From Macrocystis pyrifera (taxonomy: Eukaryota; Sar; Phaeophyceae; Laminariales; Laminariaceae), in the NCBI GenBank assembly GCA_031763025.1, contig JASSKH010000031.1:4822904-4886903 (forward strand): a DNA stretch of 64,000 nt. The letters run 5' to 3'. The notes below the pieces were generated by a model. It saw only the letters and a program-made list of their open reading frames with translations, was not told where the DNA came from and made no database searches. Positions 1,357 through 63,827 of the stretch are shown one piece after another. Position 1 is the first letter of the stretch. The number at the start of each line of letters is the position of its first letter. Made by a program: the position numbers and the translations under genes.

Positions 1357-4059
1357 GTGAGGTGGGGGCGGGTGGGCCGTCATTTTGTCATTGATTCTAT
1401 TTTCCTTTTATTGAGGTGGGTGAATGGGTGGGTGGATGGGTGGTCGTTTTTTGTTGTTGTTGTTTTTTTTTTTTTGTCGTCTACGTTCACACGTAGAGAG
1501 TACTGTAGTATCTGGTACGTACGTCGTACGTATTGTGTATGATTTGTGCCATGTGCCTTTTTCCCATGTCTTTTTTTTGTTTCGTCTTTCTTTTCCGACT
1601 TTTTTTTGTTGCTCGTAACCTTCGTCGCTTTTCTTTTTTAATCAATCATGTGCTTTGTTTTTTGTCTTTTAGAGTTTTTTGCCTGTTTCCTTTTTTTCCG
1701 TCTTTTCTTGTTGTCATGCTCTCCCTCTGTCTTTCTCTCTCGCCCTCCCCGTCCCCTCTCTCCGTTTTCTCTACCCCTCTCTGTCCCTCACGGCCTCTCC
1801 CGCTTCCTTTCTCTCCTCCCCCGTCTCTCTCCCCCTCCTTCTTCGTATTTTTCGCAGCGCTGCTTCACTCTGGGGCAGGTGAAAAGCCTCGTGCTGCAGC
1901 TCCTGTCGGCAGTGGAATACATGCATCGACATTGGTACATCCACCGCGATCTCAAGACGTCCAACCTCCTCTACAACCACCAGGCATGTAGGGAGAGGAG
2001 GGAGGGGACAGTTTGGTGGACAAGGAGAGGAGCCGGGGGGGGAGGGGGTGTACTCATTTGTTGCTTGCCTTAGTCATTTGACCATTGACCACGCATCCCT
2101 TTCGAGACGGGGGGGGGGGGGGGGGGGGGGGGAGCACGGGCTGAGGTGGAAGGCCCGGGAGGGGGAGGGGGGGGGGACTCCTTTTTCGCTCTGTATTAAT
2201 AAGCAAAATCTGAGTAAATAGGACTCTTTCAAGATTATGTTGTTGCAACTTGAAACGGGGGGGAGGGTGCACGATTGTAACCGTGTGCATGCATTCTTTT
2301 GGTGTGATTCTTTTTTATGTCCCGTGTGTTGATGACTTTTTGTCCATAAAACGTGGTGTCAGTATCCAACGTACTAGCCCCCCCCCTCCCTCTCCCTGCC
2401 CTCCCCTCCTCTTCTGTGTTTTTCAGGGAAAGCTGGCGGTGTGTGACTTCGGGCTGGCGAGAAAGTACGAGGATCCCATCCGACCGTACACGTCGAACGT
2501 CGTCACGCAGTGGTATCGCTGTCCCGAGCTTCTCCTCGGTGAGAGATAAGCCAGGCCCGTTTTTTCTCCTCTGCTAAAAGTTAAGGTTTCGCTTGCCATC
2601 GCAGGCGGTAAGGGAAAGGCGGGGCGGGGGTGGGGATCGTCAAATCAGTATAGCCAGGGTCAGAACCGTTTTTCCTCCTCCGCAGCCATCAGATGATTAT
2701 GCTTCCTTTTTGGAGGGGGTGGTGGGAGGGGTGGTGGGGGTGTTTTCTCGTCTGTCTTGAGACCCCCCCCTCCCCCAATATATAGGTTGGGTTGGCGTCG
2801 GTTGGCAACAACAGTGTAAAACATGCCGCTCACTGCTTCAGCTACTACAGTAGACAACCAGGGCACCTTTTTTTATTTTATCTTATTTTCGGCGGCCGGT
2901 CACAGCTGGCGATCGAGTTATTGCACTCGTAAATCATTTGTGCGGGGTGGAGCACCTTTACTCGGCACAAGGGGGGGATGATCGTATCACGTCGTGTGCA
3001 CCTGGTACCTAGTATATGGTAAAAGGCACCCAAGAGGCAGTTACATAGTACCCTCGTTGATTTCTCTGGAAGTGGCCACACCAGAAATTAAATCAGCTCA
3101 ATGAAGCTGTCACACCCATGCGCAAGGCTGCCCCACAGGCGGTTCTTAGTAGGATGCAGCATCACCCTTGATTAGTCTCGCCGATTACCTCACGGCGCTT
3201 CTGCGCTTGGTGCAAACAATGCCTGCCTGGTCGGTGAAAACCCGACATGCTCCGTCCCGGCTTTGTGGGGATGCGAGGGTCTATGGTCATACGACGACGG
3301 CCATGCATGATGACGATTATCTCCCCCCCACCCGCTTGCGCCTCCTCATCCTTGTTGTACTCCCTCGTCTCTTTTCTCTGCGCTAGGCGAGAAAATTTAT
3401 AGTACGGGCGTGGACACGTGGAGCGTGGGGTGCATATTCGGGGAGCTCGTCAAGGGGTCTCCTATGTTTCAGGTGCGATGGCGGGATATGCGAGGGGTTC
3501 GGAGGGGTTGGAGGCGGGAATTGCGAGGGGTGGACTGGGTATAGATAAGTTGACAATTGTTTTTTTCACCATATTTTGCAGACGGCGATCAAATCCGTAC
3601 GTGTAGGTATCGGTCATGTCGGTGGCGTTTTTTTGTTGTGGTGGTTTTGATGATTTGTGTCGGATGTGGTGTTGGTAGTTTGTAGGGTTGGTGTTGGATA
3701 TCTGTGGGGTTGGTGTGTGTGATCTTCATGGGGTTGGTGTGTGTTCTTGAGGTGAAACTGCTGTTTCTACCCGTCGACATCCAACACACCCAGTGTCCGT
3801 ATCGAGTCTTCAATCGTAGAGAGAAACATACAAGCTTCGTGCTCACAAAACTACGGCACAAGAGATCGTACAGGACATTGTTATGCAGTGAGCAGAGTAG
3901 ACAATGCATGCAATGCCATGCCATCGTACGGGATACTATAGGCACGACGTACGTGCGCGTTCTATTAATAGCATGCGTTGAAAGAGACAACATCGAAAGA
4001 AACAAACAAAAAAACAATCGAATGGGAAGGGTGTTGTGTGAATGTCGGAGTCGTGGTCG

Positions 4060-4094
<35 letters not shown>

Positions 4095-6725
4095 GATGGT
4101 TGGCGTTTTTTTTTGTTGGGGGGGTGGTGTTTTTCCATATCATAGGTCGAGATTTTTTGTTGTGTTGCGTAAGGCGTTCCTAACAGCCCGCGTGGCGTTG
4201 TGCTCTCGGTTTCCTTTTTTTTTTTTTTTTTTTTTTTGGCGCAATCTGACAAGCGCTGCTGTGCCGGCGCCAAACACGGTGCGATCGACCAGGCCAAGAA
4301 GATGAGGCCAAAATCCCCGACGACAAGCTACCGTTCGCACGACCCTCCGCAGCAGCGCGTACAGTGCGTATGATAAGCCCTCAGTAGGTGCAGTACGTGC
4401 CTCATTGTACGTGCAGTAGGTGAACACCTCGCAGTACGTGCAGTGCATGCCTCACAGTACGTACGACCTGCGGCAGCAATACGCGTGGTACGTGCAGCAG
4501 GTAGTATACAGACAGCAGTGCAGTAGGAGGACGCACGTTTAATCCCTGCTTCTATTACGGGGGACCATGAGTTAATAGGACCTACGGTATACATAAAAAC
4601 CTATATATTTACCTATTTTTACTATCAAAATTTGGTCCTATTTACTATGGACCCCCGTAATATTAATAGCTGGTGTCATTCTTGTTGCTGGTGTTGGTAT
4701 TACGGGGGACCATAGTAAATAGGACCAAATATTGTCAATAAAACTAGGGAAATATATAGGTGTTTGTGGGTACCGTAGGTCCTATTAACTATGGTCCCCC
4801 GTAATAGTTATCGCGCAAACCTCTACGGCAGTACAGCAGCAGCACAAGCATGGAAGACGTCTTCCCAGAGCTTGAGTTTTTGTTCAGTGTGTGCGCACAA
4901 GTACGTGTGCGAAGTTGCCACTTTTGTTCGCTCGCTCATGCACTGCTCGTATTGATGATGTTGTTTACGTACAAGTTTAGTTTTCACTGGGATGTGCGCG
5001 TGCGTGTACGCGCCGCGCGTGCGTTTGACACGCCCGTCCGTGCACAGCGTTGGTTGTCCCGTGATAACGACTTCCTCGATATCCCTCTCTGTGTACGCGC
5101 GTTGGTATACGCTTTTATGTTCGTTCCTGCGTTTTTGTTTGGTGGCCCTTGGTGCCGGTTACCAGGTAGACGCCAGTACTACTCTGCTGCTGCTGTGAAA
5201 TCACATATATAGAACCCTCATGTAACGTGTGCGTAACGGATACACCATGCCGCAAGTACGTATAGTATACGGTGCGATTTTTCCCATCGGTTCGATGCGG
5301 TACGGTGGTCGGTGAGAACCCGACGTGCTCTCCGTCCCGGGATTGTAGGGATGCGAGGGTCTATGGTCATACGACTACGGCCATGCATGATAATGAGTAC
5401 ACCCCCCCCCGCGGGCGCGCCCTTTTGTTTTTCCCCTCTGCTGTATGCGCGTGTCTCCTTCTCGCGTACAATGTCCGTTCGTGTATATTCTTCTGTACTA
5501 TTAAAACGTAATCTACACACATGCTGATTTCCCAATTATTTTTCTGTTGGTGTACATACTGGCGGCGTTTGTTTAGTGTTATATGTAATGCGCTTAATTT
5601 TGTGTGTGTCTTATGTATGTGTGTGTTTGCCTGTTTTGCAGGGTAAGACAGAAATCGACCAGCTCGCGAAGATCTTCGGCGTGCTGGGTTCTCCCACCGA
5701 GGACAGGTGGCCGGGATGGTCCAAGCTGCCCCACGCCAAGAAGGTTGCGTGGCGACAAGGACCGGAGAACCAGCTCAGGGCGACCTTCCCCACGACCGGC
5801 TTCAGGTTAGAGACCGGGGGCGGGGGGGGGGCGCTCGGAGTGGAGTGGAGTGTGGACAAGTGGGGTGGGAGGGAGTTGAGTGTCCGGGGTAGGTGGTTTT
5901 TCCGAGGGGTAGGGGGGGGAGACCAATGATCTGCAGTACATAAGTTGGCGTATCCCATACGGGGATTATCCCATATGGAGATATCCCACTTGACTTGTCC
6001 CGTACGGGGATATCCCACTTGGGTTATATCCCATGTGGAGATATCCCACTTGGCTTGTCCCATATGAAGATATCCCACTTGGCTTATATCCCATGTGGAG
6101 ATATCCCACTTGGCTTGTCCCATATAGGGATATCCCACTTGGCTTATATCCCATGTGGAGATATATCCCATGTGTGATCCCACGGGATACTACGGGATAC
6201 TACGGGATATTATTGATACGAATCAGAACCGAATATGGTGTGTATACATGGAGATGCGTGGGTCCATTGCGGTTTCTGACTGCTGTGGCCTCCCTTAATA
6301 GCAGTGTACATGACCCGGGGGAAGGGAAGGGACGGGAAGGGGAGAGAAGGGAAGGGAAGGAGGGGAAATGGGAAGGGGGGGAGAGGGCAGACAGTCGTTT
6401 TTGCTGTGGTGGCAAGAGACGGTATAGCTGTTGGTGTTGCCGACAACCGTTGTTGTGATTTGCTGTTGTAGACAACCATACAGCAGTTGTGAAGTTGTTG
6501 TGGTCGACAGCTGTTGTCGTGGTTGCGGCCTCTGTTTTTGGCAGACGTGAGTGGCTGCATTGAGAGAGGACAAGAGCAGCACCTGCAACCGTCGTGTTAA
6601 CTGGCGGTCATCGTTGTGGCGGATTAAGGGTTGCCATTCCACTGAGTTGTGTATTGCTGTCGATGTTACTCGTCCGCCCGACTGATCCGCATATTGCTGT
6701 TTTTCCCTCGCCCCCTCGTTTCCCC

Positions 6726-9959: not shown

Positions 9960-10060
9960 TCCCGACGTGCTCCGACCCGGCGTTGTAGGGATGCGAGGGT
10001 GTATGGTCACACGACTACGCCCATGCATGACATGAGTATACCCCTCCCTCCCCGCCCCCC
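9960..10060 (+). mobile_element. RP-C1, 5'-truncated copy
   Basis: It starts inside CCGACGTGCTCCGACCC and ends CATGCATGACATGAGTATAC followed by a C-rich tail. Confidence 0.82.
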
Positions 10061-11379: not shown

Positions 11380-13930
11380 TCACGGGGAAGGGGCCGAGAA
11401 GAGCAGAGAGGGGGCGCGCGAAGGGATGCGGGAGGGGGGGGGGGGGGATTGGTGATATTTTTTCCCTCTCTTGTGTTTTCCCTTTTTCTGTTCCTCGATG
11501 CTCCGTTTGGCTATCTCTGCCTGACTGATTGTAGGCTGTCGTGGTGGAGCGCCTTTTTTTTCTTTCCTCTCACGGCTCTTCCTGTGATTCCTGTCATGAG
11601 ACATATATACCCAGTAGTATGCCTGATTATTCGGCTGCTGACAGCCAAGAAAAAAATACAAGGAAAAGAAAAAAACATACAATGCCGCGAGGTGTTCTTT
11701 CGTTTTGTCGTGTTTTTTGTTTTCTTGTTTTTTCCCGCAAAACTTTTTCTTTTTTCTTCCTTTTTTCTGAGTGCTCTCCTTGTTTTTTTTTTCATGCGTT
11801 TTTCTTCTTGTCTTGTCGTGGTATCTGGATGTGACCTGTCAGTTTTCATTCTTCTAGCGAAGCGGTGCTCGTACAACAAACAGTGGAGCATGGACGTCCT
11901 ACTTCGGCTTTTTTTGTCCCCTCCCTCCCTTCCTTCCTTCCTGCCTGCCTGCCTGCTCTCTCTCGTGGCGCAAGCTTTGGCGTGGTTTTGTGTGTGTCGT
12001 CTTGTATGGTGTCTCGTTTTTGTCTTGTGTTTTTCTCTTCTTTTCTTTCTTGTTTTTCTCGGGCGGGGTTATTTTTCTTTTCTCTGGCCCCCTTCGTTTG
12101 TAGTTGTTTTTGTTCGTGTTTTTTTTTACGGCGCGATTCGGTTGCGTTCTCGCCTTGTGTGGCGTAGGACCTTTCTTATGCGAGATGTCGTCTAAAACAT
12201 ATATGTCATTGTCTCTCGGGACTTTTCCTGAAAACAACAATCAGCAGTGTGGTGCATGCACGGCTTTTGACGCCCGCTCCCCTCTCCCCCCCCCCAAAAA
12301 AACAACGTTCCGAGGGGTAGGGAGATACATCGAACAAAACGAGTTCGTACCATGGTTTTACGAGTGAGTACGCACGACCTACCCCCCGTGATGAGTACAG
12401 CCCCCCCCCCCCCCTTGGCAATGCCCGCCTGGTCAGTGAAAACTCGACGTGCTCCGTCCCGGCATTATACACAGGGGGTGCGAGGGTCTATGGTCGCACG
12501 ACTACGGCCATGCATGACATGAGTATTCCCCACCCCACCCCACCCCCCCCCCGCCCCCCCCCCGTCTCCCCCGTGGCAACCATGTGTGTTCTTCATGTTG
12601 TCATTCCGCCCCCCTGTATCGCCATCGAGTTGCTTTTGCTTCCCGATGTCCAGAGCTTTTGTGCCTGGTTGAGTTGTTCGCTGAGGACAAGAAGCAGGGC
12701 GCACGGTCGATCGTCGCCTGTCTGCGTGATGGATGCGGACTTTGGTGTGTTTAGAAAGCTGAGTTCTAAATTCGAGGTATATGGTGTGACGCGCCAACGT
12801 TTTTTAGTATCGTTTGGTTCCATTATTACGCGCCCGTTTTCGGTTTCCAGGGAAGGTTGGTGGCCTTTGGGGAGGGGGGGGGGGGGGGGGGGGGGGGTGG
12901 GCAGGATGAGAGAAGGGGACTTGTGAGACTACCACGATTACTGTTCCGGATATGGGCAATGTGATCGCGACTCTTGTGTGTCTGGGTACTCGTGCCGCCC
13001 AACGGAGCGGATGCTACTTTTCTGAGCGAAAGAGGTGCTGGCTATTTATTGTTGCGCTCGGTAGGTAACAGCGGCAGAAAGAAGCAGAAGAAGCGGCAGC
13101 TGCGTGCAGCAGCAGCAGCACAACAAATAGGAGATCAACTGGCTCACACGCGTACTGACGTGGATGGCACGTATTACTTCATGGCTGGGGGGTGGACGAG
13201 CGAACCTGTCGTGTATGGCGGACTGCCCGCCTGTTTTTTTTTTGTTCGGAATTTGCCGTGGACGATGTGATGACAATGGGGGAGGGTGGGGGGGGGACAC
13301 GAAACACGAACAAATTGAAGAAGGCCAAAAACAGGGAGGAATGGATGGGCGGACTGAGCCCTTGCATAGCTAAATAAATCCAGTCGGGGGACGGGGACGG
13401 GGAATACTACTACGAAAAAAATTCTAATATGCAAGTTGTTGCACTTTTTTTGTTCTACGTATTAGTTCTACTACTAGATGGTTGATTTGGTGAATTGTTT
13501 TTTGGCCTGGTTTTTCTCCCTTCTTTCTTTTCCATGTTATTTGGTGGTAATTGAAGGGAGGCGTGTCGGGGGGGGGGGCGGGGGTGGGGGGAGGGTTGGG
13601 GTTCCTATGGGTGTTTTCAACGGACATACGTATCATGTCGTAGCATCCGCCGATATGTGTGTGTGAGTGAAGAGGGAGGGGGCAGGGGGGTACAGAGTAT
13701 ATGATATCGATATATCTTATCAATCTGAGTATCTTGAGGCACAAATTAGTGCCGGGGTTATCTATCTATCTATCTGCTGGTCGGCCATCTCGTATATCAT
13801 AAATCAGTCAATCAGTATATCAAAAGAAGGGGAAATAAAAAAGGTTGTTTTTAGCCAGGTCCGGATTGGTAAGACATATGGCCGGCTGTGCTTGCGGGGG
13901 GCGAACGAAGAGACGCGGCAAGCGGAGGGC
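11380..13930. other. No gene recognised; T-rich DNA and homopolymers
   Basis: Long T-rich stretches (11450-12180) keep hydrophobic frames open but lack codon structure. There are G runs at 12878-12898 and 13569-13590, and two RP-C1 copies at 12370-12560. A CAGCAG patch lies at 13108-13120. Confidence 0.6.
12370..12560 (+). mobile_element. RP-C1 tail plus a second truncated copy
   Basis: GTGATGAGTACAG with a 14-C tail (about 12389-12415) is followed directly by a longer truncated copy ending CATGACATGAGTATTCCCC. The second copy sits behind the C tail of the first. Confidence 0.8.
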
Positions 13931-14434: not shown

Positions 14435-14466
<32 letters not shown>

Positions 14467-22192: not shown

Positions 22193-22199
22193 TTCTCCC

Positions 22200-22290
22200 G
22201 CCGCGCTCCGTCCCGGCATTGTAGGGAGGCGAGGTTCTATGGTCATACGACTACGGCCATGCCATGGATGACATGAGTACACCCCCCCTC
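22200..22290 (+). mobile_element. RP-C1, 5'-truncated copy
   Basis: Only the last ~85 bp are present, starting at GCTCCGTCCCGGCATTGTAG. It is preceded by a 46-nt C run. Confidence 0.85.
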
Positions 22291-22617: not shown

Positions 22618-22748
22618 CTGGTGCAAGCAATGCCTGCCTGGTCGGTCAAAACCCGACGTGCTCCGTCCCGGCATGGTAGGTATGCGAGGGTCTATGGTCA
22701 TACGACTACGGCCATAGATGACGTGAGTACATCCCCCCCCCCCCCTCC
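22618..22748 (+). mobile_element. RP-C1, 5'-truncated copy
   Basis: It starts at GGTGCAAGCAATGCCTGCC and ends GATGACGTGAGTACATCCC with a C tail. Confidence 0.87.
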
Positions 22749-23243: not shown

Positions 23244-46378
<23,135 letters not shown>

Positions 46379-57438: not shown

Positions 57439-60400
57439 GTGAGTGGCCTGTGGTACTAGAGGACCCGACCTGCCCAAGCAACATGTACGGCAGTATAGCA
57501 GCGCAGCAGCGCGCAATGGGTTTCGTCGAATTGTCGCACGTACATCTGCAGTATGAGATCAGATCAGGAATCAAGCAGTACGAACCAGGTACCAAAGGTT
57601 AAGGTTTGTACGACTGCTGTACCCAGGTTCCGATATACCTGGTATATCAGCAAGCGGCAACAACAGTAGCGGTAGCAGCAAAGACAGTACCGGCAGCAGC
57701 AACGACAGCAGCGGCAGCAGCACTACTGCTGCTGTTACTACTCGCTTGCTGCTGCTGCTGCTATAGTAAGTATACCGAGGATTGCATCCTAGACTGGAAG
57801 TTACATACCGGGTACCTGGTAATATAATGTTATTAATAGTACTATAAATAGTGGTATTTGCTGCAGCTTCTGCGAAGTATACCGAGCATTGCATCCTACC
57901 CTAAAAGTTTAATACCAGGTACCAGGTATCATAAAACATGCCCCGGTTTCCATACTCTTGTCCTGATGGATGCGGCAAAGGGACAAGTCGAAAATAACAC
58001 GGGGCAGTTGACGCCAGCTATCTTCCAATCAAACCACGGGAACCACGTGAAATCACGCCGCACACAAACTAGAAGAAGAAAGACACAGCTCGCAGCTCGC
58101 ACACCCGCAGTCACGCGACGATTGACCTTCGATCTCGACATATAATCCACCCACGGTCAACGAGCTTGGTACCGGGCAAGGCCAGTGAGTGTAAATTATG
58201 GTCTGAGAGGTATAATAGGAATCCGTGGCCTAGGGGGAGAGAGGTTGGCCGCGGCGTCCTATGCTCTTCTTCAAAGCTTTCAAAATGTTCTGTTTCGTGC
58301 CAACGGAGAGGAATCGAGAATTTTTGTCGTCTGTTTTCTACACACCAGCTGCCAAATATGTTTTTAGCAGACGCCTGGCCCACCCACGCCACATATCACC
58401 GACCGAGGTGGAGAACTGTGGTACTAGTGTGGGTCGGAGCCTCTAACCAGCGCGCTTCATTCAGAGTTCGTGACGTAATCGTTGGGTTTGTCGATCGATG
58501 TCCAACCTGAAAAATGGTCTATTTTTTGCCATTGGAGAGGGGTAGAGATTTTTTTTGTCGTCTGTCTTCTACAGACCAGTGCCAAAATGTTTTTTTATCA
58601 GACGCCTGGTCAGCCCACGCCACATATCACCAACCGAGGTGTGAGCACTGTGACACTAGGCTGGGTTGGAGACCTTAACCATCGCATTCCGTTCAGATTT
58701 CATGACGGTGTCGTTGGTTTTGTCGATCGATGTCTGCCGAGGATTCTCATAAAAGTTGGCTCTAGTAAATGGGAATGACTATACATTGCTCCAGTATCTG
58801 CCAGAACAGGGGTTTTACATACATTGCGCGGCGCGCAATTAAAGTCGGCGTAAGCTGTCCCGTGCCGTAGAAAAATTGCCCGGTAAAGGCGACTACCCCT
58901 TTAGTCCGGGCCCCGCGGACAAAAACCAGGCGTTTTTTTTTGTTCGTTTTTCAATTATATATTTATATATTATAGAGAAACTCATGCCTGGCAATTTGCA
59001 ATAAAACATGCCGAGATATAGCCTTCAGCAGATAACCATTGAATGATACGGTGAGGCTACTGCTGGAGCAACCTGCAAACGTGAATGACAACGATGACAC
59101 GCTCAGTAGGCGAGTGAGGGGCTACTCTGTTTCCTCGTACGTAGCCAAAACCTCACACCATCCACACCCCTCCTACATTATATACCCTGGTACCTGGTAT
59201 ACATATATAGGTTGGGTTGGCGTCGGTTGGCGACGACGCTGTAAAACACGCATCTCACTGCGTGAGCTAGACAACCAGGGTACCGTTTTTTTTTCGGGAG
59301 AGGGGGTCGGCGGTCACCACGGCTGGCGGTCGAGTTAGATATTTTGTGCGCGGGGAGAACCTTAACTCCGCACATGGGGGTGATCGTATCACTTAGTGTG
59401 TAACTGGTACATGGAAAGGCACCCACGAGGCAGTTACATGGTGAACCCATTGCTGTATCTGGAAGTGGCTACACCAGAAAATAAATCAATTCGTTGACGC
59501 TGTCATCCATATGCATTAAAATCCGCCTCAAGGGCGGTTCCTAGTAGGATGCAGCTCACCCTTCATGCGACTCGCCCAACACCTCACGGCGCTTCGCGCT
59601 TGATGCATGCAATGTCTGCCGGGTCGGTGAAAACCCGACGTGCTCCGTCCCGGCATTGTAGGGATGCGAGGGTCTATCATCATACGACTACGGCCATGCA
59701 TGATAATGAGTACACCCCCCCCCTCCTTAAGGTAAGCTACAAATGAGTAACCCCCTCCGCCCCCCTGGCGCACGTGCTTCCCTATCGTAGGTGAGCTCGT
59801 ACGAGCGCTTGAACAGGATAGGAGAGGGGGCATATGGGACCGTCTATCGCGCTGTTGACAAGCACACCAACAGCCTGGTCGCCCTCAAGAAGGTGCCAAA
59901 CAGCAACACACACACCTATTTGTGTAGTACTATATGTTGTGATGCACTGGTGTGTGCTCGGCACTGTACTGCTGCCGTACGCTCGAGCTGTCTCTGTACT
60001 CATTGTATTGTACCCATGGTACTGCGGGCTGTTGCTTAGTGCTGTACTGGTGCCAGGTACCCATGTACCTTTTTTTTTTTCGTCTTCGTTTATTTTGTTT
60101 CATCCCCAAATTTAGCTTCGCCCTTTTTTCTCCTCAGCCTCCCTTGTCGTAGCTCAGATCCCGGGTCGCATACATAGCAGATGCGCTTCTCCCTATCTCT
60201 GGAAGTGGCCACACCAGATACTAAATCAGTTCACTGGTGCTGTCATCCATATGCGAGAAAATCCGCCTCTAAAGCAGTTCTTAGTAGGATGCGGCTCACC
60301 CTTCATGCGAATCGCCCAACACCTCACGGCGCTTCGCGCTTGGTGCGAGCAATGTCTGCGTGGTCGGTGAAAACCCGTCGTGCTCCGTCCCGGCATTGTA

Positions 60401-63400
60401 GGGATGCGAGGGTCTATGGTCATACGCCTACGGCCATGGATGATGATGAAGACACTCCCCCCCCCCCCCCCGCCTACTGCGGTATGAAAGTATATATAGG
60501 GGGGAACCAAGAAGAGATTATGTCCGTGGAGAAGGTTGGGAGGTACAAGACAGAAGTACAAGAAATGATAGAAAGAAGGGAAAGGCTAGCACTAAGGAAC
60601 AAGATGAAATCGGAGAAACACTCAAGAGATATACGGGGGATTAAGCGAAGAGGAAGGAATGAAAACGTGTTTTTTGCTCGGCCCAATAGACTTCGCAAAA
60701 ACGCTGAAACTGGAATGAAAGCGTGGTTTTTGCACGGCCCAATAGACGTCGCAAAAACACTGAAACTGGAATGAAAACGTGTTTTTTACACGGCCCAATA
60801 GACTTCGCAAAAACGCTGAAACTGGAATGAAAACGTGTTTTTTTTTTGCACGGCCCAATGGACTTCGCAAAAACGCTGAAACTGGAATGAACGTGTTTTT
60901 TTGCACGGCCCAATGGACTTCGCAAAAACGCTGAAACTGCTATTTCGTGTAGAGGACCTGGACCTGCCAGGAAGAAGAAAGGGGTATACCAGTAGCCGGG
61001 AGGAAGAGAGGAAGTAGACGCACAAATATGTGCCCGTGTGGCAAAGCAATAGAGAGTAGAACTCACAGAGTAGGATAATGTGAATGAAGTGTCCAAGGAG
61101 GAACGGGATGTGCTAGAAGAGGAGATGAGGGAAATAGACGAAAGTTACATTGATGGGTTTGGTACGCTAAATAGCAGCGAGAAAAACGATCGCTATCCTA
61201 GGAGATGGATGGTGGCCACAGGCGGCGAAATAGGAAGGGGATAAGATTAGCAAAAAAAAACTATGTAATATATGGAAACAACGTAATGAGTGCCCAACTG
61301 TTGGAGGTGTCTCTATTAGAAGTAGGAACGGTGCTCCGTCTCGAAAGGAATGCGTGGTCAATGGTCAAATGATTAAGGCTAGCAAAAAATAAGTACGCCC
61401 CCCCCCCCCCCCCCCCCCGCCGCCGCCTTACTACGATACGTGTTTTGCATTTTTTTATCGCGAGAAAACTTCTGCCTTTTCTTCGCTCGTCGACTAGCAA
61501 TGAATTATCTTAATCAGCAGTACTCACACTGCTGTACATTTTAGGTCGGCGTTCTCAGCCCCTGGCTTGAACCTTAGCCCTTCTTGACATACTGCAGCAG
61601 TTATATTGCCAGCGCCTACTGGGATAGCGGTCTAGGATATCATTTCGATATATCGAATTATCGAATTTTCGGTTAACCGTGTCGGACTGCTTCGATTGCC
61701 CTCCATCCCCCCCGCATCCACGTGTTTTTCTTCTGCCGACACTGAACGAAAGTCTGTATGTATCCTCATCGAAATCGTATCGATTACGTTTTGCTGTTTA
61801 CTGGTATCATATCGAAGTCAATCCTCATACATACGATAACCAACGCTATATTGTATACGTATCATACCTGGCACGTATTGTAAGACGGAATGATTACCAG
61901 GGATGTGCGATACCGGTAATGGCTTCCTCATCGGTTCTCCAAATCACGTCCGATTTCGAGATTATGTGTGCTTTTCCATGATGGAAAACGCCTCCTTACA
62001 TAGTGTTTCCCCTATGTTTTGAGCGGTGTACTCAACAGGGGATGGTGTCGATCTATCCCCTGATTTACCGCCTCGTCGGAAGCTTTTTTGGCAGCGATTC
62101 ATGCGAGAGGTTTCCTCATTTCTGCGGTTTCGCGGTGTGTTCGGTACGCCCTAACCATTGTGAGCGGTATCGCACATCCCTGATGAATACGATACTTTCC
62201 GCGCATTTATCGTTTCATCGTCTAGCACCACTTGTATGGCACCATTCAGCCGCCGCCGCTGCTACAAAACGGGAAGAAACATAACGAATATACATTATTT
62301 CAGACACAGGCGCCCAGACCGTCTGCCCACAGACAAACAAACAAAAAAAAGTACCACTGCTGCATGTGCCTTTTTCTCGTCGCGGAAAGCACGAGAGCGT
62401 GTGAGTTAGCAAATTTCGATTAAAAAAAAAACAACGAGCAGTGACGGAAATGCTGAACCCTATGCGCGATAAAAAGGAAGGCATGTACCGAGGGGGCGAA
62501 AGTGCAGGTACCTGTGACCACGGCTTGTCCCCGGAGCTGGAGAGTGAAGGTGGTGGGTTTAAGTACGCATACAGACAGACAGATGCAGTCACCCGCAGAC
62601 ATGCAGGCACACTTTCTTTCCCGGGTCCCAGGGCGAAACATGCCTTGTAAATAGGAAAACCCCCGCTCGTGGACCCCGCTATCGATAGGTGCCAGAGGTG
62701 CGGAAAATGAGAAAAACAGGTCGACTTTAGTGTTCCCATTGTTTTTTTGTTCCAGTCCGGCAAGCGCGTGGACGGGGCGACATTCTCTAAACAGGTATCA
62801 CATTTTCTAGACACCAAGACGCCCCCTCCCTATCCCCTATCCCCCCCCCGCCTCATCCTCATCCTCCTTCTTCCCCCCCCCCCCCCCCCCCGAAAGGTAC
62901 CCCCTCCCAATTATATATAGGTTGGGATGGCGTCGGTTGGCAACGACACTGCAGAACATGCCGTTTACTACTTGAGCTAGACAAGCAGGGGTACCTTGTT
63001 CTTTTTTTTTTCGGCGGTCGGTCACAGGTGGTTGTCGAGCTAGATCATTGGCGCGAGGTGAACAGCCTTCACTCCGCTCAAGTGGGAATGATCTTATCAC
63101 GTAGTGTTTATGGTAAGGCACCCAAGAGGCAGTTACATAGTTCTTCCATTGCTGTCTCTGGAAGTGGCTACACCGGAAATTAAATTCTCTGATTGAAGCT
63201 GTCGTCCGTATGCAAGTCCGCCTCACAAGCGGCTCTTTGTAGGATGTAGCTCACCCTTCAAGCGACTCGCCCGATACCTCACGGCGCTTCGCGCTTGGTG
63301 CAAGCAATGTCTGCCTGGTAGGTGAAAACCCGACATGCTCCGTCCCAGCATTGTAGGGATGCGTGGGTCTATGTTCATACGACTACGGCCATGCATGAGA

Positions 63401-63827
63401 TCGAGTACATCGCTCCTATCGAGCACCCCCCCCCCCCCCCCCCCCCAAACGTAGGTGTCTCTGTTGGGAGTAGGAAAGGTGCTCCGTCTCGACAGAGAAG
63501 CGTGGTCAATGGTCAAGTGGCTAAGACGAGCCAACAAATGAGTACACTCCACCCCCCACCCCACCCTCCCTAAATTCCCCCCCCCCCCCCTTTTCCTCCC
63601 TCCCCCCTTGCAAGGTGATTTTGCACAACGAGAAACAAGACGGGTTTCCTTTAACGTCACTGAGAGAGATCCAGCTCCTCAAGAGCGTGTCGCACCCCAG
63701 CTGCGTTCGCCTGCTGGACGTGGCGGTGGGGAGAAGGAGAGAGATGGTTTTCTTGGTGTTCGAGTACTGTGAGCACGACCTCGCGGGGCTGCTGGACTCC
63801 ACGAAGAAGCCCTTCTCCGAGTCCGAT
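57364..63827 (+). CDS. CDK10: CDK10-type cyclin-dependent kinase, first three exons
   Basis: Exons 57364-57438, 59791-59892 and 63615-63827 join in phase 0 to 130 codons, and the gene runs off the right edge. Exon 1 starts at ATG 57364 and ends YGSCRP, matching the Gly-x-Cys-Arg-x-Val motif that precedes the kinase domain in CDK10. Exon 2 carries the glycine loop GEGAYGTVY and the catalytic Lys in VALKK. Exon 3 has [16 protein letters not shown] (cyclin helix with its Glu) and [14 protein letters not shown] (hinge). CDK10 works with cyclin M in the nucleus (family knowledge). An in-frame ATG at 57196 could extend the N terminus, but its sequence looks non-coding. The catalytic loop and DFG are outside the window. 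Confidence 0.87.
58286..58735 (+). repeat. ~225-bp tandem duplication in CDK10 intron 1
   Basis: 58286-58502 and 58520-58735 share GCAGACGCCTGGCCCACCC / TCAGACGCCTGGTCAGCCC, CGCCACATATCACCGACCG / CACATATCACCAACCG and TTTGTCGATCGATGTC. Confidence 0.85.
59202..59768 (+). mobile_element. RP-C1 full-length copy and second tail in CDK10 intron 1
   Basis: Starts CATATATAGGTTGGGTTGGC and ends GATAATGAGTACAC with a C tail at about 59725. A short ACAAATGAGTAACCCCC (RP-C2-like end) with its own C-rich tail follows, 22 nt before the acceptor at 59790. Confidence 0.87.
59791..59892 (+). CDS. CDK10: CDK10-type kinase exon 2, ATP-binding loop
   Basis: This 102-nt phase-0 exon encodes [20 protein letters not shown] then [13 protein letters not shown]. 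The acceptor is TTCCCTATCGTAG and the donor GTGCCA. Its first codon is GTG, which is not a start here. C-rich tails of two RP-C elements end within 65 nt of the acceptor. Confidence 0.92.
60190..60475 (+). mobile_element. RP-C1, 5'-truncated copy in CDK10 intron 2
   Basis: It starts at CTGGAAGTGGCCACACCAG and ends GGATGATGATGAAGACACTC with a 14-C tail. Confidence 0.87.
60480..61412 (+). mobile_element. RP-C2, longest copy, with coding remnants
   Basis: It ends TGCTCCGTCTCGAAAGGAAT, GTCAATGGTCAAATGATT, AAAAAATAAGTACG and a C tail. The first part is open for about 95 codons ([20 protein letters not shown], then [20 protein letters not shown]), highly charged and probably coiled coil; I do not recognise it. 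It is interrupted by a ~56-bp unit repeated five times at 60663-60942. It could be the longer partner of RP-C1. Confidence 0.75.
60663..60942 (+). repeat. Five ~56-bp tandem units inside RP-C2
   Basis: Each unit contains CGGCCCAATAGACTTCGC or a close variant and AAAACGCTGAAACTGGAATG. The reversed RP-C2 at 28055 has only one, so the amplification is local. Confidence 0.9.
61898..62182. mobile_element. hAT-like MITE with 8-bp target duplication
   Basis: Ends CAGGGATGTGCGATACCG and CGGTATCGCACATCCCTG are perfect 18-bp inverted repeats, and CAGGG is a common hAT end. The flanks are ATGATTAC and ATGAATAC, an 8-bp duplication with one mismatch, as hAT transposases make. At 285 bp it cannot encode a transposase. 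Confidence 0.9.
62375..62560 (+). mobile_element. SINE-T diverged fragment
   Basis: GCGGAAAGCACGAGAGCGTG, CTGAACCCTATGCGCGAT and TGTGACCACGGCTTGTCC match the SINE-T body, with a longer central part. The head is missing. Confidence 0.65.
62912..63446 (+). mobile_element. RP-C1 full-length copy in CDK10 intron 2
   Basis: Starts TATATATAGGTTGGGATGGC and ends GAGATCGAGTACATCGCTC with a ~22-C tail. Its start is preceded by another C run at 62874-62891. Confidence 0.87.
63447..63600 (+). mobile_element. RP-C2 3' end directly before CDK10 exon 3
   Basis: GTAGGTGTCTCTGTTGGGAG, GTGCTCCGTCTCGACAGAG and CAACAAATGAGTACACTCC, then C-rich DNA that runs into the acceptor at 63613-63614. Confidence 0.85.
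63615..63827 (+). CDS. CDK10: CDK10-type kinase exon 3, cyclin helix and hinge
   Basis: This 213-nt phase-0 exon encodes [18 protein letters not shown], then [20 protein letters not shown] and EHDLAGLLD, ending KPFSESD before GTGAGG. The acceptor CTTGCAAG follows the C-rich tail of an RP-C2 copy. The remaining 173 nt of the window read as intron. Confidence 0.92.

Follow-up and report, generated by a model that had tools for sequence, protein, structure and literature searches.

Two retroposon families with a common 3′ end

A 64,000-nucleotide (nt) stretch of giant kelp DNA (Macrocystis pyrifera, C213:4822904-4886903; hereafter, the window) carries near its end a cluster of two retroposon families, RP-C1 and RP-C2, that share a 3′ end followed by a run of C's. 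An earlier note on this DNA had described them as elements with poly(C) tails, related to one another as a short interspersed element (SINE) is to its long interspersed element (LINE) partner. Both families were followed through the window and through a genome set of 223 contigs totaling 537,376,219 bases; the assembly description of the giant kelp reference gives 537 Mb in 35 scaffolds and 188 contigs (PMC10498591). Full-length RP-C1 begins near 59174, which corrects the start at 59202 claimed before. The cluster is made up as follows.

59174..59723, + strand: full-length RP-C1 (59174-59714) with C-run 59715-59723
60193..60471, + strand: 5′-truncated RP-C1 with C-run 60457-60471
60482..61418, + strand: RP-C2, the 3′ part of a LINE, decayed, directly after the C-run of the preceding RP-C1; C-run 61398-61418
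62912..63446, + strand: nearly full-length RP-C1 with a variant end carrying two GAG(C/T)AC boxes; C-run 63426-63446
63453..63598, + strand: LINE 3′ end (63453-63547) directly after the C-run of the preceding RP-C1, then C-rich sequence with a run at 63577-63590

By BLASTN, 20 copies in the window share the 3′ end (...GAGTAC and then C's), 14 of RP-C1 and 6 of RP-C2, bearing out the original claim of at least 20 such sites. The end motif (AATGAGTACAC, at most one mismatch) occurs 11 times there, compared to 1.04 expected, and none of 100 shuffles reached 11; a run of at least five C's (C5+) lies within 40 nt downstream in all 19 window copies that passed a later filter. Genome-wide, the end motif with six C's attached (AATGAGTACACCCCCC) was found 3297 times (1652+1645) and its reversed control 0 times.

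Across the window and the loci fetched from the genome (L numbers), some of which were chosen by their 3′ end, 112/119 RP-C1 matches and 70/116 RP-C2 matches reached the element end; part of the 46 RP-C2 matches that stop short are matches to an internal tandem repeat. In the LINE copy at 60482..61418, a 56-bp unit is tandemly repeated about five times at 60656-60939, a region that is coding in other copies. Two further points made at the outset held up: the copies keep a fixed 3′ end and vary in their 5′ start, as truncation would have it, and the two families align at their ends, with similarity over the last ~70 nt where ~75 bp had been proposed.

When the seed match that fetched each locus was excluded, 88 distinct copies from the window and the locus flanks extended to the end (52 RP-C1 and 36 RP-C2). 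In this non-seed set, C5+ is present within 40 nt on the 3′ side in 83 of 87 copies, compared to 14 of 86 in a control stretch 150 to 190 nt downstream of the element end; runs of at least five G's were seen in 0/85 at the 3′ side and 3/85 at the 5′ side. Exact RP-C1 ends were counted over the whole genome on one strand, the gapped pattern overcounting the other, and C5+ follows within 10 nt in 1339 of 1443. Ends without C's, named beforehand as a refuting case, do exist, as a minority (104/1443 lack C5 within 10 nt). LINE ends with C5+ number 2109 on one strand, a bare count and not a fraction of all LINE ends. The 3′ C-run is present in all 21 young LINE copies, which were chosen by an internal protein piece, a selection blind to both ends. 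One RP-C1 subfamily (window 63395-63425, L065, L026, and L021) carries two GAG(C/T)AC boxes ahead of the C's, spaced ~20 nt from each other, which looks like a past extension of the 3′ end.

RP-C2 and its noncoding partner

LINE frames lie upstream of the RP-C2 end. Copies of RP-C2 with a reverse transcriptase (RT), which were to be looked for, were indeed found, with an endonuclease as well in one of them. Locus L071 has an RT frame of 642 amino acids (aa) that reaches the locus end (PF00078, E = 9.5e-32), and L090 has a 1137-aa open frame with an endonuclease upstream of the RT (PF00078, E = 1.6e-29; PF03372, E = 9.6e-11, above its cut-off; a PF14529 match, E = 4e-5, is below its own). Since L091, itself incomplete at the start, aligns with L090 427-2026 at 97%, the LINE spans at least 4.8 kb. 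The frame of L076 has its TGA inside the shared end (ACAAATGAGTAC), leaving ~5 nt (GTACG or GTACA) between stop and C-run, and two database proteins (P0001 and P0003) have nearly the same terminal residues. As judged from these frames, RP-C2 is the 3′ part of a non-long-terminal-repeat (non-LTR) retrotransposon of the apurinic/apyrimidinic endonuclease (APE) type, that is, a LINE with endonuclease and RT.

The RT has its nearest named relatives among Ectocarpus proteins (the best is 60% identical over 95% of the query), and the solved chains closest to it in sequence are R2 and LINE-1 ORF2p. Given the Ectocarpus relatives and the elements described from that alga (PMC12477816), the LINE probably belongs to the RTE-X group known from Ectocarpus; that the nearest Ectocarpus proteins are themselves RTE-X is our inference. 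A search of viral contigs for relatives found none. A 100-aa RT piece from L067 gave 3956 first-look candidates in the genome, and each of the 150 that were scored had an E of ≤1.3e-46; an endonuclease piece gave fewer (687), a rough comparison, as the queries were 100 and 80 aa long. A LINE end with near-identical flanks recurs on many small contigs (L039-L044 and L053-L059; C14, C22, C32, C56, C84, C98, and others), which we read as a larger repeat or segmental duplication carrying the LINE end.

RP-C1 is ~520 bp long and noncoding, starts with TATATTATATACCTGG, and ends in the last ~70 nt of the LINE; no convincing match to the 5′ part of the LINE was found. In Rfam, no family reached its gathering score in the window, and nothing meaningful appeared at a relaxed score over 59150-59760. 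RP-C1 showed no relation to tRNA, 5S, or 7SL, and no head of the RNA polymerase III (Pol III) type was found in it; a run of nine T's lies inside the element at 59286-59294. The SINE/LINE pairing first suggested stands as to the common 3′ end and the RT-bearing partner. From its sequence, RP-C1 is a noncoding partner of the LINE, carrying a copy of the LINE 3′ end, and is SINE-like only.

Many LINE copies are cut back to the shared segment. Of the 49 LINE copies that start in the last ~135 nt in a low-threshold search, 31 have their first base at probe positions 814-823, and 816 and 817 together account for 19. This hotspot (binomial, 8e-19, computed on a slightly different hand count of 30/46) coincides with the first bases of the segment common to LINE and RP-C1, ~68 nt from the end. 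Minimal LINE copies, consisting of the shared 3′ segment between C-runs, are seen in the window at 2048-2110, 25027-25090, and 25456-25523. One can picture an RT that may fall off a folded 3′ domain at the hotspot. The predicted single-sequence folds of the last 68 nt of the LINE and the last 76 nt of RP-C1 look alike, with z scores of −2.45 and −0.92, respectively; 3/200 and 34/200 shuffles fold equally well. A conserved RNA fold did not hold up: in 48 tails hand-picked from 123, the pairs were no better than in shuffles (53/500 reach the observed 92.4%), and RNAalifold gave a different, weak structure, with no covariation support, so that the fold is hypothesis only.

C-runs and duplications at the 5′ junction

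C-runs are also found where the elements begin. Among the non-seed copies, 53/84 have C5+ within 20 nt on the 5′ side. For the 30 best-scoring full-length RP-C1 copies, C5+ ends within 6 nt of the start in 23, compared to 21/600 control positions, and, on one strand of the whole genome, 140/183 exact RP-C1 starts have C5+ within 6 nt upstream. The young LINE copies behave alike: a run ending within 8 nt of the 5′ junction is C4+ in 14/15 and C5+ in 12/15 (controls, 46/720 and 36/720). By eye, several of these 5′ runs come after sequence other than the end of a copy. Insertion looks to be preferentially in C-runs, as into the repeat in microsatellite-targeted LINEs.

Target-site duplications could be assessed in 8 of the 15 young LINE copies, those in which two or more letters other than C separate the C-run from the element. 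At a match of at least 75%, a duplication starting in the C-run was found in six of the eight; shuffled sets gave a mean of 1.27 and a maximum of 4, and 0/2000 reached 6. These are CCCCTACTT in L072, CCCCCGTCGAC in L075, and the C-run plus GAG (L088), GG (L080), TC (L074), or GC (L085), the last three being short. In L083, the C-run plus TTCCC agrees by eye, and a general duplication scan added L045 (CCCCCCCCCTCCCATGACATATT) and L062 (CGCGCCTGATT after the C's). At a score of at least 12, that scan gave 4/145 in the mixed set of copies and 3/433 in shuffled pairs. Target duplications, proposed as a check on retroposition, are thus evident in most of the testable young LINE copies and weak in the mixed set of 145. 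A candidate duplication in L018 was dropped, as its letters are readable as the element's own start.

The case of L030 is different. Here, a full RP-C1 sits inside another RP-C1, flanked by a 21-bp duplication (TCTGCCTGGTCGGTGAAACCC), and is followed by nine consecutive C's (the final C of GTAC and eight more), a run that the host element lacks at that point. This is the best evidence that C's can come with the element, and it also argues that a C-run target is not strictly required. A search for filled and empty site pairs among the loci gave nothing cleaner than L030 among the matches listed.

Given the C-runs at 5′ junctions and the duplications that start in them, a large share of the 3′ run appears to come from the C-run in which the element landed. 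The first 3′ run minus the last 5′ run can be compared in 15 young LINE copies, with the reservation that runs are limited by the stretch read and that 3′ runs may be interrupted by other letters: L069, +2; L072, +32; L074, +3; L075, +2; L078, +7; L079, −16; L080, +2; L082, +2; L083, +9 (a longer 5′ run of ten C's lies slightly upstream of the one counted); L084, +1; L085, −11; L086, +3; L087, +6; L088, +11; and L089, +25. The largest excess, in L072, reflects 4 C's on the 5′ side and 36 on the 3′ side. Excesses of 2 to 3 fit a short C-ended RNA together with a duplicated target; large ones need slippage or later growth.

Tail, target, and the origin of the C-runs

C-runs thus appear to be favored as targets, and the “tail” appears to be in large part duplicated target. 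The initial reading of the C run as a 3′ tail holds to the extent that L030 and L072 have C's beyond the target; as the sole explanation, it is weakened by the C-runs at 5′ junctions and by the duplications that begin in C-runs. Models of tail alone and of target alone each fail some copies, and we favor a mixed model of tail plus target, with a probability of about 0.7.

In a purely tailed element, the RNA would end in a long C-run, or in a short one that makes the RT slip, in the manner of poly(A) in L1, and the C-runs at 5′ junctions would reflect landing in older tails of the RP-C1 and LINE families. Many copies do sit after another copy's end, L030 gained its nine C's with a duplication that starts without a C-run, and the 4 and 36 C's of L072 are what such a tail would give. 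This account is nevertheless unlikely, since the 5′ runs often come after sequence that, by eye, is not the end of a copy and since several of the young LINE copies have a 3′ run that surpasses the 5′ run by just 2 to 3, which is what a run made largely of duplicated target would show. The converse, that the elements have no C tail of their own and that all of the C's are preexisting homopolymers, later grown, would accommodate the runs on both sides, the duplications starting in C-runs, and the many C-runs that have no copy. We think it less probable still: L030 acquired C's where the host sequence has none, the 3′ run is commoner than the 5′ run (compare the exact RP-C1 ends and starts above), and in 13/15 young LINE copies more C's stand in the first 3′ run than in the last 5′ run. 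Finally, the assembly was built from PacBio reads, according to its description (PMC10498591), leaving run lengths uncertain, and some copies are found on small contigs and have nearly the same flanking sequence, so that a homopolymer or assembly artifact of long reads might be suspected. That is very improbable, given that C is confined to the sense strand of the element at its 3′ end, that the same junction is present in >1000 copies, and that duplications cross the C-run.

Several observations weigh against the mixed model or limit it. L069 and L078 have a C-run without a matching duplication, L084 and L010 have no C-run on the 5′ side, and L036 has no run of even three C's within 75 nt of its 3′ end. 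The general duplication scan showed little excess (score of at least 8 in 12/145 mixed copies and in 28/433 shuffled pairs); among full-length RP-C1 copies, no clear non-C duplication was found besides that of L030, which does not itself begin with C's. As many as 33 of the 55 C/G runs of at least 10 in the window have no RP-C1 or LINE copy found beside them. C-runs also adjoin full-length starts more often (23/30) than truncations outside the hotspot (17/64; hotspot copies, 18/29), a contrast not expected from simple targeting, to which age and inaccurately set BLAST ends may add.

Taking the mixed model of tail plus target, we imagine the following course. The endonuclease would nick the G-strand of a C/G homopolymer, and the resulting 3′-OH on the G-run would pair with C's at the 3′ end of the RNA and prime reverse transcription, which, in the LINE, would often halt where the last ~68 nt begin. 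Cutting of the other strand a few nt further on would duplicate the C-run and leave it on both sides, and extra C's could stem from the RNA's own short C end, from slippage, or from later homopolymer growth. Each insertion would leave C-runs as the next landing sites, so that arrays could be built. A broader proposal, that the LINE endonuclease is now specific for C/G homopolymers matching the C-rich 3′ end of its own RNA, that tail and target reinforce one another, and that the LINE and its partner wrote a substantial part of the C/G-homopolymer landscape of the kelp, is more tentative, and we would rate its chances at a little under even.

As to that landscape, the window has 55 C/G runs of at least 10, of which 21 were scored as lying beside a copy; the run at 61398-61418, a LINE tail missed by one base under the adjacency rule, brings this to 22/55 in all. 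The suggestion that the retroposons explain many of the homopolymers is thus upheld for about 22 of the 55 window runs, and it does not extend to most of them.

Relation to known elements

The 3′ tail of a retroposon is usually A-rich or a short microsatellite. Among insect LINEs, Waldo, Kibi, and Dong insert into simple multibase repeats by means of their own endonuclease; the kelp elements resemble them in inserting into simple repeats and differ in that the target is a C/G homopolymer. Our literature search for poly-C or a poly-C tail with retrotransposon, SINE, LINE, or retroposition found nothing on poly(C) retroposon tails, as judged by titles and the openings of abstracts, and a claim that poly(C) families are absent from print would reach no further than that search.

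The closest parallel is in another brown alga. Ectocarpus has the LINEs RTEX-1 and RTEX-2_Ec32 and a nonautonomous RTEX-N1_Ec32 of ~600 bp with >6000 copies, whose 5′ origin is given as undetermined (PMC12477816); there, too, the short partner reaches thousands of copies and has nothing but the 3′ end in common with the LINE. We saw no C tail and no C-run target stated for these elements, however (PMC12477816). In stringent LINE/SINE pairs of other lineages, the short element likewise copies the LINE 3′ end and then has a simple repeat, (A)n, (T)n, (ATT)n, (CTTT)n, (CA)n, (CAA)n, (CCAT)n, (TTG)n, and similar, and we saw no (C)n like that of the kelp among them (PMC3747384). The RTEX ends of green algae in the same overview are (CA)n, (CAA)n, (CCAT)n, (ACAATG)n, or (CTTGTAA)n, again with no (C)n that we saw (PMC3747384). 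A microsatellite-seeding RTE of Lepidoptera also leaves abundant 3′ fragments, with the RT C terminus beside a simple repeat (PMC2887409). In the account of its insertion, a 20-bp target duplication has the repeat inside, and the repeat is argued to have been absent before insertion, whereas the kelp C-run is also present at the 5′ side and begins the duplication (PMC2887409).

A LINE and a short partner with a common 3′ end are therefore already known, also in a brown alga, and the unusual part is the C-homopolymer ends and targeting. A LINE and partner that end and land in C-homopolymers offer a natural system for asking how the tail, the primer strand, and the preference of the endonuclease coevolve; the two-sided C-runs and the duplications starting in them make the model testable. 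RP-C1 and the LINE also provide a specific origin for some of the C/G runs of the kelp.

Other copies and features of the window

The remaining copies in the window are as follows.

2048..2110, − strand: LINE 3′ end, minimal copy, with a C24 run on its 5′ side
2778..3322, + strand: RP-C1, nearly full length
5306..5402, + strand: RP-C1 3′ end
9961..10041, + strand: RP-C1 3′ end
12418..12525, + strand: RP-C1 3′ end with a C-run on each side
22197..22282, + strand: RP-C1 3′ end
22619..22731, + strand: RP-C1 3′ end
24914..24980, − strand: RP-C1 3′ end
25027..25090, + strand: LINE 3′ end, minimal copy
25456..25523, − strand: LINE 3′ end, minimal copy flanked by long C-runs
28069..28760, − strand: LINE 3′ part
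31850..32083, − strand: RP-C1, 5′-truncated
32114..32208, − strand: RP-C1 3′ end
34622..34788, + strand: RP-C1, 5′-truncated, with C-run 34788-34799
39090..39188, − strand: RP-C1 3′ end

C/G runs without a copy include those at 24620-24699, 26811-26869, 27519-27591, and 14436-14466, some of them 59 to 80 long; such runs could be targets, tail-only insertions, or unrelated.

Two protein kinase exons lie at 59803-59895 and 63615-63827 (Pkinase, E = 1.8e-6 and 2e-6, respectively, both slightly below the Pfam cut-off); the best solved relative of the second is CDK11B (E = 3.1e-13). Between these exons, in sense orientation, are two RP-C1 and two LINE pieces, most of the cluster described above, and these pieces apparently share one intron.

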